DNA from: a bacterium
GTDB lineage: Bacteria; SZUA-182; DTGQ01
Assembly: GCA_023512255.1 (NCBI GenBank)
Contig: JAILZY010000002.1
Coordinates: 47,062-111,061, forward strand
Direction of reading: 5' to 3'
DNA length: 64,000 bases
Shown here: positions 2,932 through 44,684 of the stretch, in pieces
How positions within the stretch are numbered: the first letter of the stretch is position 1
Layout: the number at the start of each line of letters is the position of its first letter
Notes under the pieces: model-generated
Databases searched by the model: none
Told to the model about the DNA's origin: nothing
Seen by the model: only the letters and a program-made list of their open reading frames with translations
Position numbers and translations under genes: made by a program

Positions 2932-3400
2932 CCCACCCCTTAAGGGGAAAAATTTATGCTAAAGTTGTGCAGGTGTATGCGCCTCCCCCAGCCCTACCCG
3001 CACAGGAAAAGAGCCATCAGGGAGAAAACCCTGGGCCCGGACCACTCCTGCGGCCCTACCTCCTGAGGAAAAGCGCCGCGTGGTGCACGCCCCGCATGGT
3101 GATACGCCCTGCATGGTGATACGGCGATGATGATCCCTAATGGCCTTGTTACCCCCTGAAAGGGAAAGCCCCTCAAAGGACAGGAGATGAGGTTATAGTG
3201 AAGAAGGCAATAAGCCTGATGATGATAAGGAGGCCGAAGATATTGCACCAAGTTGCATAAATATGCAAAGTTTTTCATATCCTCTTATTACTAAAAGTGA
3301 ATAAATGAGTGAATAAATGTTTTTAAGACCTTAGGGTAAAGTAAGATTTTAAGATAAAGGTATATAATCCCCGGTTAGAAAAAGATATATATACCCAGCT

Positions 3401-3417
3401 TTGGCACTGAAATTGCA
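3401..3417 (+). promoter_or_regulatory. sigma-54 promoter (-24/-12): TTGGCAC-TGAAA-TTGCA
   Basis: Exact match to consensus TGGCAC-N5-TTGCA in non-coding DNA, 93 nt upstream of ORF 3510. Confidence 0.8.
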
Positions 3418-3509
3418 AAGTTAATAGTATGTTGATTTTTATCATGATGTTGGCTAGGAAAGCGTTCATAAATAACAGAGTAGAATCTTAAGAAGAGGTT
3501 AGAAATAGC

Positions 3510-4868
3510 ATGAGGTTAGGGGAGAAGTTATTCGGTATTTTTGTAGCTATTGTCGGGATTATTTTAGCGGGGTTTAGGATGACAGAGGTTGTAGATTTAG
3601 CGTATGCCAGCAGTGGGGCGAGGGAAATCGTGTCTATGACTAAAACGGTCAGTGTGGCTAACTCTCCCCGGGTATATGATTCCATCGCTCTCAAGGTAAA
3701 AACTACGCAGCCATTCAAGGTTTGTGTGCAGGTCTATACCTCGGAAGGCGAATATTGGATTACCTATTCGTCGACCTACAGTGGATCACCAAAATACGAT
3801 CAGGAAACAGGTATGATTGAGGCCAGGCTGGGACAGTCTGTAGAGAATGGACAATGGAATACCATCGAATTGAATGTAAGCTTGACCCTGCAAGAGGAGG
3901 CCTTAATCAGTGGCCATGCTCCCTTTAGCCTGCGCAATATCATGAAGATCAGCCTGCTCGGCAGCGACTTTGGGGTCCGCTACGTTAGCGTATTCTATAC
4001 GGACAGCGATGGATCAAAGAAATACCAGCCTCTTGATAAGGATAGGTATGGAAGCGACAATTTCAGTCTACCAGATATTACCCCACCAAGCTACAAAAAA
4101 ACCTGGCAAGGGTGGGAGTTAACCGATCCTGAGTATTTCACCATCCAATATGATGAAAATCTAGTCAGTTATCTCCAGGCTCAAGGCCCTCTGAGTGAAA
4201 GCCACTCAGAAGGCTCTTCCAGTCAAAATCGGACCGGGGATGCCGTTGTCTACTCTCCTACTGATCTGGGCAGCTCTTACTACTCTCCCTACTCAGCCCT
4301 GGGAGGATACTATGACAACTATTATGGGGCCTGGTACGGCGGCCTAGGGTATTATAACTATCTTGGTTATGGATTTCCATTCTTGTACGGCCCGTTTGGG
4401 CTTGGCTACGGCGGTCTCTTCGGCCTCGGCTACGGTCTTCTTGGCCTTGGAGGCTTATTTGGCTATGGGCTGGGTGGCTATTTCTATCCACCGCCACTAT
4501 ATGGGCTTGGCTACGGTCTTGGAGGGTTTGGTCTTCCCTACTCAAGCTACGGCTATCCTTATTCCCTCTATGGCGGCTTCCTCAACTCTCCACTTGGGTT
4601 AGGCTTTTCTTCTCTGCTGGGAACAGAGCTTAGCAGCTCAGATCTATTGAGCAGCCTGTCGAGTCTGCCGACCAATACCATCTCGCTGCCGACTCTTGTC
4701 CCCTCGACCAGTCAGGTGAGTTTATCCTCAATCCTGGGGTTGAGCAATCTGGGAATATCGGGGCTATCCGATATTACCGTACCGATAACTACCTATACAC
4801 CCGGATCGACCACGATCACCTTGCCAGATTTGTCAAGCCTCCTCTCTTCAACCACAAGTACAATTTAA
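3510..4868 (+). CDS. Secreted protein: signal peptide, beta-rich N-domain, Tyr/Gly/Leu-rich low-complexity tail
   Basis: Hydrophobic N-terminus; long GLGYGxxGLGG-type region; paralogous in layout to ORF 4918. Confidence 0.85.
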   Translation: MRLGEKLFGIFVAIVGIILAGFRMTEVVDLAYASSGAREIVSMTKTVSVANSPRVYDSIALKVKTTQPFKVCVQVYTSEGEYWITYSSTYSGSPKYDQETGMIEARLGQSVENGQWNTIELNVSLTLQEEALISGHAPFSLRNIMKISLLGSDFGVRYVSVFYTDSDGSKKYQPLDKDRYGSDNFSLPDITPPSYKKTWQGWELTDPEYFTIQYDENLVSYLQAQGPLSESHSEGSSSQNRTGDAVVYSPTDLGSSYYSPYSALGGYYDNYYGAWYGGLGYYNYLGYGFPFLYGPFGLGYGGLFGLGYGLLGLGGLFGYGLGGYFYPPPLYGLGYGLGGFGLPYSSYGYPYSLYGGFLNSPLGLGFSSLLGTELSSSDLLSSLSSLPTNTISLPTLVPSTSQVSLSSILGLSNLGISGLSDITVPITTYTPGSTTITLPDLSSLLSSTTSTI

Positions 4869-4917
4869 AAGGTACGAGAAAAGATAAGAGACCAGAGAAG
4901 GGGCGGGAGAGAAGGAG

Positions 4918-6138
4918 ATGAAAGAGAAAAACGGGCGGTGGTTAGTAGGGTTATTGGGCCAGTTATGGCGGTGGTTATTGCTCGCCCTAATAGTAGTGGC
5001 CATAGGGTGGGGGACCACCAGGGCAGCGGGAGCAGCCGAGTCTTCCCCAAAGTCAGTCTATATCTTCAAGGAGCTAGAAGGCAGAGCCTATCGACAAGAG
5101 AATATTCGGCTTTCGATCAAGAGCCAGGATTCGCTGATCATTTCCCTGCGCCTTGGGACAAGCAAAGGAACAAGCCGCTGGGTAAATTTTACTACCAGCG
5201 CGGGCTCACCCTCATATCAGGCCGATTTGATCGAAATTCCTCTTGGCCGCTCTATTACCGATGGAGCCTGGCATGAGGTTGAGCTTCTCGACCTTGGGGG
5301 AATCCTTGCCCGAGGTGGAGATACCTATAACCATATCGAGAAGATCGGTATCCGAGGAACAGCTTTCCAGCTGGGGAAGATAGAGTTCTTTTCAGGGGAT
5401 GCCAATGCTCCTATCAGCGTTCAGGTTATGAGCTTTGACCATCCTGAGATCTCGAACATGAATCAGTATGGCTGGTACTCGAATGACAGCAGTATAGAGG
5501 CTACCCTCCATTATCCGCCGGAAGGTGGCTATCTTGAGGTTAAGGGGAAAACATCGGCCCTGTCTCAGCAAACAACTCAAAAGCAGCAGGGTGGACAAAA
5601 GGAGGCGACAGCCTCTTCTTTCAGCCAGCTCTCTGCCAGCCAAAGCTGGTATTTCCCCTTCTCAGCCCCATCGAGCTATCCCTTTTTCTCTGATTGGACC
5701 GCAGGACCTGTCTATCCGCCCTATATACCTCCACTGCGGCCTTTTCCGCCGCTCTTTGGGCTTGGCTATCCACCAGGGACAGCGCCCTATGGCTTTGGTC
5801 CTCAGCCTGTACTCTCTTTACTGACTCTGGCTGGACTGCCGGCATACTTCAGCGATCCCAATCCGGGTTATCCCTACTCGGCAGGGGGGTATAACTTTGC
5901 CACTCTTTTTGCTACCGGCAGCAGCCCTTATCCCTTTGCCAGCCCCTTCCCTGCCCAGACTTACAGCTACCTAGCTCCTCCTCTTGCTCCGTTTGATCCG
6001 ACATATAATATCTATACCTCAACCGTCACTTCTACCCTTGCTCCCACAGCTACCCTCTCCGGGCTCCTGACCGCCATCAGCATTGGTGGCGGTGGAGGAG
6101 GTGGCGGCCCAGGCTTTGCCGGCGGAGCTTTAATCTAG
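4918..6138 (+). CDS. Secreted protein paralogous to ORF 3510; Pro/Tyr/Gly-rich tail ending in poly-Gly
   Basis: Signal peptide; shared N-domain pattern (TSAGSPSYQADLIEIPLGRSITDGAWHEVEL vs SGSPKYDQETGMIEARLGQSVENGQWNTIEL); tail with GLGYPPG and GGGGGGGG. Confidence 0.85.
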   Translation: MKEKNGRWLVGLLGQLWRWLLLALIVVAIGWGTTRAAGAAESSPKSVYIFKELEGRAYRQENIRLSIKSQDSLIISLRLGTSKGTSRWVNFTTSAGSPSYQADLIEIPLGRSITDGAWHEVELLDLGGILARGGDTYNHIEKIGIRGTAFQLGKIEFFSGDANAPISVQVMSFDHPEISNMNQYGWYSNDSSIEATLHYPPEGGYLEVKGKTSALSQQTTQKQQGGQKEATASSFSQLSASQSWYFPFSAPSSYPFFSDWTAGPVYPPYIPPLRPFPPLFGLGYPPGTAPYGFGPQPVLSLLTLAGLPAYFSDPNPGYPYSAGGYNFATLFATGSSPYPFASPFPAQTYSYLAPPLAPFDPTYNIYTSTVTSTLAPTATLSGLLTAISIGGGGGGGGPGFAGGALI

Positions 6139-38349: not shown

Positions 38350-40695
38350 TTACCGACGGACAAGCTGTTGCTGGCTTTCAACTTCCTCCTCCTGGCTCTC
38401 ATCTACTCCGATCTTAGCCACCGCATCCTCGTGCACCCTTCTCTTTCGCCTGCGCCGCCGTCTTTCCACTTTCTGCTCGCCATCTCCATAGTACTGGTAG
38501 TAGTAATACTGATAGTAATAGTAATAGCTTCGCTTGCCAAGATCAATATTATTTATGATCGCTCCAAGGAGTGGAGCCTTAACATTCTTCAGAAGATCAC
38601 AGCCCCGCTTGATGACCTCTCTGCTAGTTACGCCACCGTGAATCACCAAAATTACCCCATCAACTATACGGCTGATAATTACCGAATCCGTTACCGCCAC
38701 CAGGGGAGGAGAGTCGATAATGATGTGATCAAACTCTTCCTTCAACTCAGCCAAGATTTGGCCCAACCTATCCGAAACTAGAAGCTCAGAAGGGTTAGGA
38801 GGCCGATGGCCACAAGTTATCACCTTGAGATTTGCTACCGGGCCATCCTGGATAACATCCTTGATCTGACACTGGCCTACGAGCAGATTTGAGATTCCCC
38901 GCTCATTCTTCATGCTAAACAGGCGATGAAGCCGCGGCTTTCGCATATCGCAGTCGAGCATGACTACCCGCGAGCCTCCTTGGGCCATAGTGATGGCCAA
39001 ATTGGCCGAAGTGATCGTCTTCCCTTCAGAGGGAGATGCACTGGTAATCAGGAGCGCCTTGGGACCATGATCGGGAAAGGAAAAAAGAACAGAGGTCCGA
39101 AGGCCCTTGTAGGCTTCGCTGATATGGCTTTTGGGCTTATGCAAGGCGATCATTTCCGGACAAGGCAGCCCGGCTGTCTCAGCCAGATCAAGGTGCGGAA
39201 CTGGACCGAGAAAGGGCAGATCAAGGTAGCGCTTTAGGTCTTCGGGAGTCTTAATGGTATTATCCAGGTATTCAAAGAAGAAGGCTAGCCCAACACCAGC
39301 AAATAGCCCAACCAGCGCTCCCAGTAAGAGATTGAGCTTCTTATTGGGCTTTACCGGATGCTCAGGCACCTCGGCCCGATCAATAATTCGAACATTACTG
39401 GTCTTTAAGCCGCGGGTCAGATCGGTCTCTTTCAGCCGGTTCAAGACCACTTCAAACATCTGCTGATTACTCTCAGCATCGCGCTTTAGAACGTTATATT
39501 GAATCGCTTTCTTATTTAACTCCAGAGCCTCTTCTTTTTGTTCGTTCAGGGCATCGATCAGCACCTTTTCCTGAGCAACAGCGATTTCATATTCGGTCTT
39601 GATGCTGTCGACGATCTTTTGAACCTCGGACTGAATTCTATTGCGAAGAGCCGTTAACTCAGAGTTAATCTTGATAATGTGAGGATGCTTTTCGCCATAT
39701 TGCTTGGACTCTCTAGTATACTCAGCCAGAAGAGTGATATAATTTTTTTTCAGCTCCTGGATGAGCGGGTTATTCATGACCGAGGGGAGGGATTCTAGCA
39801 TCTCCCAACTGTTTTTAAACTTCATGGCCTGGTTATAGAGGGTCTCAAGGCGAATCCGCTTGGTTTTGGCATCTGTAACCGCAGTATTGAGCTCGGAAAG
39901 CTTCTGGACGATAATGTCCTGCTTTTCCTCAAGAGAGACAATCTTATTTTCCTCCTTGTAGGAGTGTAGGGCCTCTTCAGAGCTTTCGACCTTCTTTTTC
40001 AGCTCTCCCACGTTCTTATTTAGCCACTCAGAGGCATCAATCGAGGCCTCATACTTGAGCCTCAGATTGTGCTGAATGTACTGATCAGCCAGGGCATTGA
40101 CAACACGGGCCGACAGGGTGGGGTCATGGGCCAGAAAGCTGATATTGACCAAGTGACTGTTTCGAATCGGCTCAACCTGAAGTCTGTCGAGAAATTCATC
40201 GATCAGCTTCCCTTCTTCCCGCTCCTGAATCTCGGCAGGCGTAAGATCAGCAGATGGCTGAGAACCTTTATGGGGAGGGAAGAGAGAGTGGAGCAGAGAA
40301 CTCAAAGATTCCTTAATTGAGTTGATTAAAGCTACCAGCCCCTTCTCCTGCCCCATATCGGCAAACTCCTTATGGTGAGCCAGGTCCATAGACTTAATGA
40401 CTGCTCGAGCCAAGGAGCGGCTCTGGAGAATCTTGTACTGGGTCTGATAGTAATCAACGTCTCGGGCATCCAGTGACATAACCTCTTGAATAGAGAGGAT
40501 ATTGGGGTTTTCCTTGTCAATGAGAATCTGAGCCGTAGCCTTATAGACCGGATCCATGCTGAAGGTAGCTATGGCCACGGTTACCAGGACAATAATGAAC
40601 ATGGTGACCACGGTCCACCGATACTTCATGATGACCCGCCAATAGTCCCTAAGATGTATCTCTTCCTCTTGAAAGCTCGATAGTTGATGCTCCAT
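38350..40695 (-). CDS. Wzc-like polysaccharide co-polymerase / BY-type tyrosine autokinase
   Basis: Wzz domain; Walker A 'SASPSEGKT', A' 'VVMLDCDMRKP', 'DHIIIDSPPLVAVTDS'; C-terminal Tyr cluster. Confidence 0.95.
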   Translation of the reverse strand: MEHQLSSFQEEEIHLRDYWRVIMKYRWTVVTMFIIVLVTVAIATFSMDPVYKATAQILIDKENPNILSIQEVMSLDARDVDYYQTQYKILQSRSLARAVIKSMDLAHHKEFADMGQEKGLVALINSIKESLSSLLHSLFPPHKGSQPSADLTPAEIQEREEGKLIDEFLDRLQVEPIRNSHLVNISFLAHDPTLSARVVNALADQYIQHNLRLKYEASIDASEWLNKNVGELKKKVESSEEALHSYKEENKIVSLEEKQDIIVQKLSELNTAVTDAKTKRIRLETLYNQAMKFKNSWEMLESLPSVMNNPLIQELKKNYITLLAEYTRESKQYGEKHPHIIKINSELTALRNRIQSEVQKIVDSIKTEYEIAVAQEKVLIDALNEQKEEALELNKKAIQYNVLKRDAESNQQMFEVVLNRLKETDLTRGLKTSNVRIIDRAEVPEHPVKPNKKLNLLLGALVGLFAGVGLAFFFEYLDNTIKTPEDLKRYLDLPFLGPVPHLDLAETAGLPCPEMIALHKPKSHISEAYKGLRTSVLFSFPDHGPKALLITSASPSEGKTITSANLAITMAQGGSRVVMLDCDMRKPRLHRLFSMKNERGISNLLVGQCQIKDVIQDGPVANLKVITCGHRPPNPSELLVSDRLGQILAELKEEFDHIIIDSPPLVAVTDSVIISRIVDGVILVIHGGVTSREVIKRGCDLLKNVKAPLLGAIINNIDLGKRSYYYYYQYYYYQYYGDGEQKVERRRRRRKRRVHEDAVAKIGVDESQEEEVESQQQLVRR

Positions 40696-40972
40696 AGAAA
40701 AATATTCCCTCTTTTGTTGTTGTACTAACCCTACACCTTGACTATACTATACCTCACACTTTGACTGCGATTTTCAAAGCTCATAGCTTCGCCCCGTGAG
40801 TTACCATGAATAATCATGCTAGCTCAATAAGAGAAAACTTCCAGCCGCCCGGCCATACAATAACACCGCGGCCTTGAAGCTCTAAGGAGAAAATATAAGC
40901 TCTGAAAAACATGCTTTGAGGAGATAAGCTCAGATGGATAAACCAGGATGTAAAATTAAAAAGAAAGTCTCG

Positions 40973-42010
40973 TTAAAAGAAACTCTCTGGAACCTTGATA
41001 ATGTCATCCGGCATAACCGGATCGGTCATTTTGGCTTTTATCTCATGCTCCTGACCATTGATCGTCCTGATAATTTTAATCTTTCTTTCATTAGCCTTTG
41101 GAGTAAGCCCGCCAGCCATTGAGATGGTTTGGAGCACATTGATTTCTTTTTCCAGCTTAAATCGACCAGGAGATTTTACCTCGCCGATCACATAGAAAAA
41201 CTTCGCCTTAGGGATATAAAGGGTGTCATTATTCTGAAGCTCAAAATGGAGATTGATCCCCTGATTAAAATCATTAAGGCTAAGGGTAATAACCTGATTT
41301 TTCAGCTCACCACCAGAAGCTCCTCTGCCGGAGCCTGAGGCAGTCTGAGTGGCTGAGCCGTTAATTACGGTTTCAGAGGGAAGATCACGTCCCCCACCCT
41401 GCTGGATGAGCTGTTTGATCTCCTTAGGATCGATTTTCTCGGCAGAGCGAATAATATATGCTTCCTGTCCAGCGTCAGGAGTAAGCCCGCCAGCCATTGA
41501 GATAATCTCAACCATAGTGGTTACTTTAGAGAAAGGATAATAGCCCGGCTTATTGACCTCTCCGAGCACATACACCTTCTTGCTGTTGTATTCCTTGACC
41601 GTTACCGTAACCTGGGGATTGACCAGATAACCATCAGCCAAACGGGAGCGTATCTTTTGCTGAAGGTCCTCGGCGGTATACCCTTCAACATTCATTTCTC
41701 CGATCAGGGGAAAGGAAATGGTATTTTTCAAAGAGACCGTAACTTCCCTCGATAGATCAGGATTATCCCAGACTTCGATCTTTAATACATCCTGAGGCCC
41801 GATCGTGTAATCTCTCAACTCTATAGCCAGGGAAGCTGATGAGATCAGGAGGCTGATAAGCAAGAAAAAGAAAAGTACCCCACCACGTCTCGGATAACCA
41901 AGGCCCAAAAGGCGCTTTCCCTGAGAGGAAAGAAAAAAAGCCTCAGTACCCAAAACTACTGCGGCTTTCTGGAGCAAGAGTACAGACATAAGTATAATTG
42001 ATCTTCTCAT
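40973..42010 (-). CDS. Polysaccharide export outer-membrane protein (Wza-like), two SLBB domains
   Basis: 'YTIGPQDVLKIEVWDNPDLSREVTVS', 'KKVYVLGEVNKPGYYPF', 'KFFYVIGEVKSPGRFKLEKEI'; true start uncertain. Confidence 0.93.
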   Translation of the reverse strand: MRRSIILMSVLLLQKAAVVLGTEAFFLSSQGKRLLGLGYPRRGGVLFFFLLISLLISSASLAIELRDYTIGPQDVLKIEVWDNPDLSREVTVSLKNTISFPLIGEMNVEGYTAEDLQQKIRSRLADGYLVNPQVTVTVKEYNSKKVYVLGEVNKPGYYPFSKVTTMVEIISMAGGLTPDAGQEAYIIRSAEKIDPKEIKQLIQQGGGRDLPSETVINGSATQTASGSGRGASGGELKNQVITLSLNDFNQGINLHFELQNNDTLYIPKAKFFYVIGEVKSPGRFKLEKEINVLQTISMAGGLTPKANERKIKIIRTINGQEHEIKAKMTDPVMPDDIIKVPESFF

Positions 42011-42713
42011 CCCCTTCCTCTTTTGTATTATCTATTCCCACAAGACAAATAACGACTGAATTAAATTTCCTTCCCCCAGACTTCTTAAATTAAATATTAG
42101 TGAAGCTCTCTTTGATGAGAAATAATGAGGGTATCTTTTAATAAAGGTATATTAAACTATATGAGGTATATTAAACTATGCCTTCTCCTTTGTCAACTAA
42201 TTTTTCGAACCTTTCATTAAGAAAGCTATTGTAAAATTTAGTAAATTAAAAGTCAAAAGCTAAGAGTCAAGGGAGAGTGTAGTCAAAAATTAGTGCATCA
42301 AGAAGGCATGAAGAACATGAAAGAATAAAAAGCCCAGATCAGAGAGCAAACTTCCCATACTTAGCTTGAGCAGTCACATTCGCCTGAGCAGCCAAAATCG
42401 CACGCACTTTCCATATGCAATCGAGTATCCGCAGCAAACACATTTCGCAAGTCACTGGAGAAAAAATTTCCGCTCGTACACGATCATCAGAATCCGATTT
42501 TCCGCTTCAAGTTCCGCGTGGCCGGAAGGGCTCCAATATGTTTTCGAACATCCCCCGCTTTCTATACCGTCATGTTGAAGCTCTCCGGTCTGGGCATTTT
42601 TCTATAAATCTATTATCTATTAAATCTTAATTTTATCTATTAAATCTTAATTTATTTATCTATAATCTTAATCTTATTCTGTTCTTATCTATGTTCTATA
42701 TCTTAGTCTATAA

Positions 42714-42730
42714 TGCAAATGGTGTGCCAA
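42714..42730 (-). promoter_or_regulatory. sigma-54 promoter, minus strand: TTGGCAC-ACCAT-TTGCA
   Basis: Exact TGGCAC-N5-TTGCA on minus strand in non-coding DNA, directed at wza (start 42010) across a ~700-nt leader. Confidence 0.75.
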
Positions 42731-42737
42731 AACCAAA

Positions 42738-44684
42738 TTAACAAGCTACCAGCGCTGGCTCCGCATCTTCCTTGGCACAGCCGCTGGCCCTGGACATATG
42801 CTGATGATACCATCTGCACAAAAATAGGACAGCCCATATCTGTCGTGACTGATCATATTTCCCCCTCTGCTGTCGCTGCCAAAGAGAATTAAGCTCATCA
42901 AAATTTAAGATTTCAGAGAGTGGAGAACGCCAAACATCCTGAAACCACTCCTCTTCCATAAGGCTCGATTCAGCCAAAAGCAGGTTCCGCAAAGGGCTCT
43001 CTATTTTCTCCTCCTTGCGCCATACAATGGCCGAAGGCAGAATCCCCTCCATGGTTTTCCTCAAAAGATACCTTTCCTCAGTGCCTTTCAGCCTTACCCG
43101 GATCGGTACCTGAGCCCAAAATTCAACCAACTTTGAATTAAGCAGGGGAAGCCGCACTCTAAGCGAATTAGCCATAGCCGCCCGATCTACTCTGGCCAGT
43201 ACATTATCCGGCAAATAGGTTTTCATCTCCACATATTGCAGCCGCGAGCACGGCTCAAGACTGTTCGGCTTGCGGTAAAGATCACGAAATAAGATGAACG
43301 GATCATATCCGCCAAGTTCATGGAAGAAATCCTCAGTCAGAATCCGCTCGATTTCCTCTATGGGAAAACAGACCATTGAGTTAAAGCAGATTCGAGCCAG
43401 AGAGTCTTCGGCCAAATCAGGCCGACTCTGAAACAGCCGACTAAACCAGCCCGCCGCACTTCCTCTCCTCACTCCTCCTGCCTGAGGGCAAAAATCAACC
43501 ACCGCGGCAGATCCATGCTGCTTGAGGCGGCTTCCCTCAAGGGGCAATCCATATCGACAGCAAGGGGTAAAAATCTCCCTGCCCCCATCGCCGGAGATAG
43601 CTGTCTGGATTTGCCGCTGCGCCGCAGCCTGGGAGGCTATTTCATAGGTCAAAATAGCCGCGGCCTCACCCAGAGGCTCATCGTAAAACTGGATCATCTG
43701 ATCCAATCGCCTCATCATCAGCCTCAGATCCCCGATCCCCTCCTGATAAGGGATGTTGAAATAATAAGCCAAAAGCCGGGCAGGGGAGCGCTCATCCAGC
43801 TCAGCCTCTTTAAACCCAAGGGTATAGCCGCGAAGTGCTGCTCCCAGCCGCTGTCCCAAAGCGAGCAGTATGGCCGAATCGAGCCCTCCGCTCAAGAGAA
43901 GGTTTATCGGCATACCATTATCATTAGACAGCGATAGGCGAACGGACTCAAGCAGCAAATTAAGCAGAGTCTGCTGATACTTTTTCTCAGCCTCTTCCTC
44001 TGCCTGGGGTGATGGTTCAATATCCCAATACCTTCGTACTACATACCCTTCCGGCGAACAAAGCAAATAATAGCCTGGGGGAAGTTTATAAATCCCAAGA
44101 AAAATACTTCTCGGTGCCGGCACATAAAGGTAAGCCAGGTAGTCGGCTACACTCCTGGGGTTAAGCTCTCTGGCCACGCTCTGATCCTGGAAGAGAGCCT
44201 TAATCTCAGAGGCGAAAAGTAGCCGATAGCCATCAGCCCAGTAATACAGCGGCTTAATGCCAAGCTGATCACGAGCCAGTATAAGGCGTCTGGCCCTCTT
44301 GTCCCACAGAGCCAGAGAGAACATCCCCTCTAGGTCGCCGAGAAAATCAACTCCCTTTTCCTCATAGAGGTGTAGGACAACTTCTGCATCAGAGTCGGTC
44401 TGAAAATAATGTCCCTTTCCCCTCAGATATCGGTACAGCTCTCGATAATTATAAATCTCTCCATCGAGAACCAGCACCTTAGAATGATCCTCATTGAATT
44501 GCGGCTGCTCTTCCTCCTTAGCCGGAATACCCAGTCGCCGATAACCTAGGGCCAGCTCCTGGTCATAATATTCACCAGCCTCTGCCGGACCTCGATGCTT
44601 GATGGCTTGAATCATTTTCCGAATCAACATCTCCTGAGCTGGCTGCTGATTGTAGTACCCATAGACTCCGACGATTCCGCCCAT
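42738..44684 (-). CDS. Asparagine synthetase B-like protein lacking the N-terminal catalytic Cys
   Basis: 'MGGIVGVYGYYNQQ' (C2G), 'LLLSGGLDSAILLALGQRLG', 'KYLLRK'-like region 'TEERYLLRKTMEGILP'. Confidence 0.92.
   Translation of the reverse strand: MGGIVGVYGYYNQQPAQEMLIRKMIQAIKHRGPAEAGEYYDQELALGYRRLGIPAKEEEQPQFNEDHSKVLVLDGEIYNYRELYRYLRGKGHYFQTDSDAEVVLHLYEEKGVDFLGDLEGMFSLALWDKRARRLILARDQLGIKPLYYWADGYRLLFASEIKALFQDQSVARELNPRSVADYLAYLYVPAPRSIFLGIYKLPPGYYLLCSPEGYVVRRYWDIEPSPQAEEEAEKKYQQTLLNLLLESVRLSLSNDNGMPINLLLSGGLDSAILLALGQRLGAALRGYTLGFKEAELDERSPARLLAYYFNIPYQEGIGDLRLMMRRLDQMIQFYDEPLGEAAAILTYEIASQAAAQRQIQTAISGDGGREIFTPCCRYGLPLEGSRLKQHGSAAVVDFCPQAGGVRRGSAAGWFSRLFQSRPDLAEDSLARICFNSMVCFPIEEIERILTEDFFHELGGYDPFILFRDLYRKPNSLEPCSRLQYVEMKTYLPDNVLARVDRAAMANSLRVRLPLLNSKLVEFWAQVPIRVRLKGTEERYLLRKTMEGILPSAIVWRKEEKIESPLRNLLLAESSLMEEEWFQDVWRSPLSEILNFDELNSLWQRQQRGKYDQSRQIWAVLFLCRWYHQHMSRASGCAKEDAEPALVAC

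Follow-up and report, generated by a model that had tools for sequence, protein, structure and literature searches.

Genes A and B, which lie side by side on a 64,000-nucleotide stretch of bacterial DNA (the window), form a predicted sigma-54-dependent operon whose promoter assignment is well supported, and the pair belongs to a wider group of similar genes, linked to sigma-54 and spread over the genome. On balance we consider it somewhat probable that this group constitutes a sigma-54 regulon whose products form a coat or matrix, in which the jelly-roll domain docks, probably on a glycan, and the tail self-associates. New here are the A/B family and a related family (FEYW), in their number and their architecture; both are absent from the libraries searched. 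The features discussed are listed in Table 1.

Table 1 Features of the A/B operon and of the window.
Feature	Position	Strand	Basis or comment
Inverted repeat TTGCATAAATATGCAA, candidate enhancer-binding protein site	3253-3268	.	Kept in G001
Sigma-54 -24/-12 promoter element TGGCACTGAAATTGCA	3402-3417	+	Exact; conserved in G001 and G002
Conserved leader with ribosome-binding region AAGAAGAGGTTAG	3490-3509	+	Near-identical in three genomes
ORF A, 452 aa: signal-like N-terminus, jelly-roll domain, Gly/Leu/Ser/Tyr-rich tail	3510-4868	+	
A jelly-roll domain, aa 35-230	3612-4199	+	AlphaFold2 model, Foldseek, profile comparison
A low-complexity tail, aa 233-452	4206-4865	+	Composition, dN/dS 0.095
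ORF B, 406 aa: signal-like N-terminus, jelly-roll domain, Pro/Gly/Tyr-rich tail	4918-6138	+	
B jelly-roll domain, aa 45-212	5050-5553	+	Homology to A and family members
B conserved tail unit, aa 253-406	5674-6135	+	56% identity to G002 orthologue, alignment
Second exact sigma-54 element of the window, 704 nt ahead of wza-like gene 40973-42010	42714-42729	-	

Promoter and upstream region

The first-pass annotation had reported an exact TGGCAC-N5-TTGCA promoter 93 nt ahead of the pair. The element (TGGCACTGAAATTGCA) is indeed located at 3402-3417, with the GG and GC dinucleotides at the sigma-54 spacing and a distance of 93 nt to the ATG of A (3510); B follows on the same strand after a further 49 nt. 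Ahead of A in G001 the element is exact and in G002 it carries a single change (TGGCATTATGATTGCA), while most of the surrounding bases differ in both genomes, and the leader AAGAGGTTAG is likewise kept. In G004, A is present with no such element ahead of it. The exact pattern occurs seven times in the 3.83-Mb genome, compared with approximately 1.9 copies expected under a dinucleotide model, and the reversed pattern has no copies there. The gene for the sigma factor, rpoN, was identified by a PF04552 match (E = 3e-60) and is present once per genome in all ten genomes of the class that were examined. Two other candidates were rejected: counts of sigma-70 promoters in the region were near the shuffled rate, and a promoter shared with the DUF4340 gene is unneeded, as the pair in G001 keeps its own promoter where no DUF4340 neighbour is seen.

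The inverted repeat TTGCATAAATATGCAA (TTGCACATATATGCAA in G001) sits 134-149 nt upstream of the -24/-12 element and may be an activator site. Among the 61 sigma-54 sites of the genome described below, TTGCA-N4-8-TGCAA precedes two (0.04 expected), so that the repeat of A recurs once; no activator site common to all 61 was found.

Architecture and constraint of A and B

Both proteins begin with a hydrophobic, signal-like segment, as judged by inspection, in line with the signal peptides first proposed, and their N-domains are distant paralogues (24% identity, E = 2e-10), which bears out the description of the genes as an adjacent paralogous pair. The tails are Tyr/Gly-rich and essentially uncharged: Tyr and Gly together peak at 62% over 60 residues in the tail of A, charged residues account for 9/220 positions in A and 7/193 in B, and Cys is absent from both. 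The earlier label of low-complexity tails is apt except at the end of B, where a conserved unit makes up the last ~150 residues; in the same-family genome G002 it is found alone, without the N-domain. Profile searches of Pfam, NCBIfam and PDB sequences matched A and B to no named family, as the first reading had it, and to no named carbohydrate-binding module (CBM) family.

In comparisons with same-genus orthologues, dN/dS is 0.05 for the domain and 0.095 for the tail of A, and 0.14 and 0.159, respectively, for those of B. Based on these values (0.05-0.16 over domains and tails), A and B are real genes, and their tails are under purifying selection. It is very improbable that an ordinary sugar-binding domain has gained, by selfish or drifting expansion, low-complexity tails that have no structural role; their low complexity and the varying length of the A tail between orthologues (20 gap columns) would fit such an origin, but the tail ratios are close to those of the domains and the tail of B persists alone in G002 at 56% identity.

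Fold of the N-domain and the FEYW relatives

The AlphaFold2 model of the A domain, built from three sequences (the models drew on 3-4), has a pLDDT of 73 and a pTM of 0.75 and agrees with the ~170-residue beta-rich N-domain first described; the full-length model of B was uninformative (pLDDT 42, near 30 in the tail). The structure search that had been suggested for this domain, run with Foldseek on the A model, returned jelly rolls as best matches, namely CFAP20-type jelly rolls and the D-glucuronyl C5-epimerase sandwich (E = 4e-5 and 4e-4, TM approximately 0.36-0.47). The N-domain is thus modelled, with moderate confidence, as a jelly-roll beta-sandwich. The CFAP20 (FAP20) fold has been described as similar to carbohydrate-binding modules (PMC6994238).

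The order has two related groups of these domains. One is the A/B type, comprising A, B and the paralogues G000 C69, G001 C78, G002 C40, G003 C109 and G004 C80; the other is the larger, likewise secreted FEYW type, which has Ig/PKD-like repeats. One FEYW member matches the glucuronyl-epimerase sandwich PF21174 in Pfam (7e-5), in agreement with the epimerase-sandwich result of Foldseek for A. A and B resemble the CFAP20/CBM-like jelly rolls and the PF21174 sandwich in fold, by Foldseek and by the Pfam match of a FEYW relative, but differ from them in sequence (11-17% identity), in a probable circular permutation and in the low-complexity tail.

As judged from the block that the two groups share (profile probability 98%, pairwise E = 4e-14), the A/B N-domain is homologous to the FEYW domain. 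Both contain the second block IxVxLG..DGxWH..DL..IxIxGxxYxL. The FEYW type opens with a D-F-E-Y-W...G-W block, whereas the A/B type is without this N-terminal first strand block (F...GW...) and has a similar F...GW...Y-L block C-terminal to the shared part instead. The best local match of the FEYW first block lands on the A/B GW motif and, although weak alone (P = 0.014), falls at the position predicted by circular permutation. The A/B N-domain is thus probably circularly permuted relative to FEYW, with the C-terminal GW block as the displaced first strand block; if so, the two would make a clean natural test case for circular permutation in secreted jelly rolls. The unnamed FEYW proteins, some of which also lie behind sigma-54 sites, differ further from A/B in carrying Ig/PKD repeats rather than low-complexity tails. 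Nearly all of them have an invariant PWW motif (PWWSY or a close variant; for example L017:9109-10722 and L035:4095-6266) at the very C-terminus, which may be a sorting signal or may close the last repeat.

Distribution and gene order

A/B-type and FEYW proteins are present in G000-G004, which represent two families of one order, and absent from five other genomes of the class. Among 50 further genomes there was no A/B-type match and one FEYW match, confined to the C-terminal repeat part; the restriction of both domains to this order (5/60 genomes) is well supported. The first-pass annotation had proposed a genomic search for the tandem pair, which was found in G000, G001 and G002 (where B is tail-only). 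It is probably kept in G004 too, since two contigs overlap by 49 nt at their ends inside the tail of A and a B-like gene follows.

The order ABC-GldG-DUF4340-A is kept in G000, G002 and G004, across the two families, as would be expected if A and B were periplasmic or envelope parts of the adjoining ABC transporter/GldG-like/DUF4340 system and their tails were linkers near the membrane or peptidoglycan. A, however, has its own promoter and a gap of more than 600 nt after DUF4340, G001 keeps the pair and this promoter although the visible upstream neighbour differs, and elsewhere a paralogue (C69/C78), as well as many Tyr/Gly proteins of a similar kind, occurs without the ABC/GldG/DUF4340 system. 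We regard such an envelope role as unlikely.

A predicted sigma-54 regulon

The pattern TGGCAYN5TTGCW has 61 copies in the genome, compared with 12 expected under a Markov-1 model and 6 from the product of half-site counts, and its density is approximately 10-16 per Mb in five genomes of the order and 3-8 in five others of the class. Genes behind the sites include glnK-amtB, wza, AAA+ activators, FEYW proteins and secreted Tyr/Gly- or Tyr/Pro-rich proteins (for example YYGLYGGLYGYGLYGG, SSYGSYGYSPYGASYG and QYPPPYYTPYYFPPAAPYY); the sites ahead of wza-like and glnK-amtB genes include exact ones. Composition was compared on stretches of the genome, with thresholds set after looking, paralogues with copied promoters counted although not independent, and a background of 298 genes in 396 kb from regions picked away from known sites. 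On this basis Tyr+Pro-rich proteins make up 9/43 genes behind sites and 4/298 of the background (P = 1.8e-6), Tyr+Gly-rich proteins 6/43 and 6/298 (P = 0.0015), and proteins with a signal-like N-terminus 31/43 and 107/298 (P = 7e-6).

Conversely, 6 of the 17 Tyr/Gly genes and 10 of 274 others have, within 500 nt, a site that is exact or off by a single base (P = 9e-5), the 17 having come from a homology search whose query was itself found behind a sigma-54 site. The remaining 11 have no near-consensus site within 500 nt, which suggests that only some of these genes are under sigma-54 control. In the portion of the genome that was read, Tyr/Gly-rich genes number at least 28.

The exact site at glnK-amtB, together with the glutamine synthetase gene that adjoins B in G000 and G001, could mean that A and B serve storage or scavenging and not architecture, and that they are produced under nitrogen stress by NtrC-type regulation. 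This is quite improbable: the glutamine synthetase gene is convergent and without a strict site ahead, the inverted repeat of A recurs ahead of only one other site, and Gly/Leu/Ser/Tyr tails would be an odd nitrogen store.

Secreted proteins of the GLYGGLYGLYGG type form a large family, whose members are often arranged in tandem and in some cases have a conserved beta-rich C-terminal part; the family is found in 5/5 genomes of the order and 0/5 other genomes of the class (loci L114 (G000:C146), L140 (C118:35001-55000), L146 (C32:75001-95000) and L017:17659-18480). Secreted Pro/Trp/Tyr-rich proteins (NWVALPPYNTLWPLWSP...) form a separate family, at least one of which is behind a sigma-54 site (L015:1867-2409, L012:3066-3692, L097 and L044:3-416). 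In L059 (G002:C207) an exact site precedes a secreted protein of SYSPYGQQ repeats, similar in composition to prion-like domains. The AAA+ enhancer-binding-protein genes L122 (G000:C58) and L108 (G000:C114), both candidate activators, have their own sigma-54 sites directly upstream, and one of the two clusters with a Tyr/Gly-rich gene.

Proposed function

We propose that sigma-54 RNA polymerase would transcribe the A-B operon from 3402-3417, probably with an enhancer-binding protein as activator at the putative upstream site, and that signal peptides would take both proteins out of the cytoplasm; up to this export, the steps have sequence evidence. The N-domains would be CBM-like jelly rolls, apparently permuted relative to their FEYW sister family, that most likely dock on glycan of the cell itself or on sister proteins, and the uncharged Tyr/Gly/Pro/Leu tails would be sticky, coat- or fibre-forming segments. 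Docked jelly rolls and self-associating tails would together give a protein-polysaccharide matrix or coat, and the predicted regulon holding A/B would include many Tyr/Gly- or Tyr/Pro-rich secreted proteins as well as exopolysaccharide export. Glycan binding, docking, self-assembly and an outer-surface location are what we infer for A/B; a putative matrix, coat or adhesin role fits all observations, including the computed promoter conservation, rpoN, regulon enrichment, homology, tail constraint and lineage restriction.

Curli, Fap and TasA are functional amyloids or matrix proteins that are exported, low-complexity or repetitive, and thought to assemble outside the cell. A and B resemble them in their predicted export and in low-complexity or repetitive sequence, and would likewise assemble outside the cell, but have no family match, have a Gly/Leu/Tyr/Pro composition and are accompanied by no convincing CsgG in G000, where the search gave two weak, short matches just over the cut-off. 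No outer-membrane export route for A/B was identified.

A limited literature search found nothing relevant on bacterial Tyr/Gly-rich secreted proteins of this sort; the composition of the low-complexity set recalls silk and prion-like domains. More tentatively, and with some doubt, the uncultured order might make a coat or matrix that resembles silk, a Tyr/Gly/Pro-rich composite of dozens of secreted proteins specific to the lineage. These would be largely under a sigma-54 regulon that also covers exopolysaccharide export, with permuted jelly rolls as the protein-to-glycan glue. If true, this would add a new class to the extracellular protein materials of bacteria, and one with a clear regulatory handle.

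Possible link to exopolysaccharide export

Co-regulation of the pair with the exopolysaccharide locus, raised in the first-pass annotation, is plausible: exact sites lie ahead of wza in the window (Table 1) and, in a same-genus genome, 183 nt from a wza-like gene. The association of sigma-54 with the bacterial exterior is already known (Francke et al. 2011, PMC3162934), and the sites ahead of exopolysaccharide export and other cell-exterior genes agree with it. Here, unlike in that account, sites also precede many lineage-specific low-complexity secreted proteins, a class that the portion of the paper drawn on here does not mention. Sigma-54, known for envelope and exopolysaccharide genes, is thus apparently coupled to a large lineage-specific set of this kind.

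The exopolysaccharide locus itself (38350-44684 of the window) contains wza, a wzc-type kinase and an asparagine-synthase-like protein, and the second element falls between the asparagine-synthase-like gene and wza.
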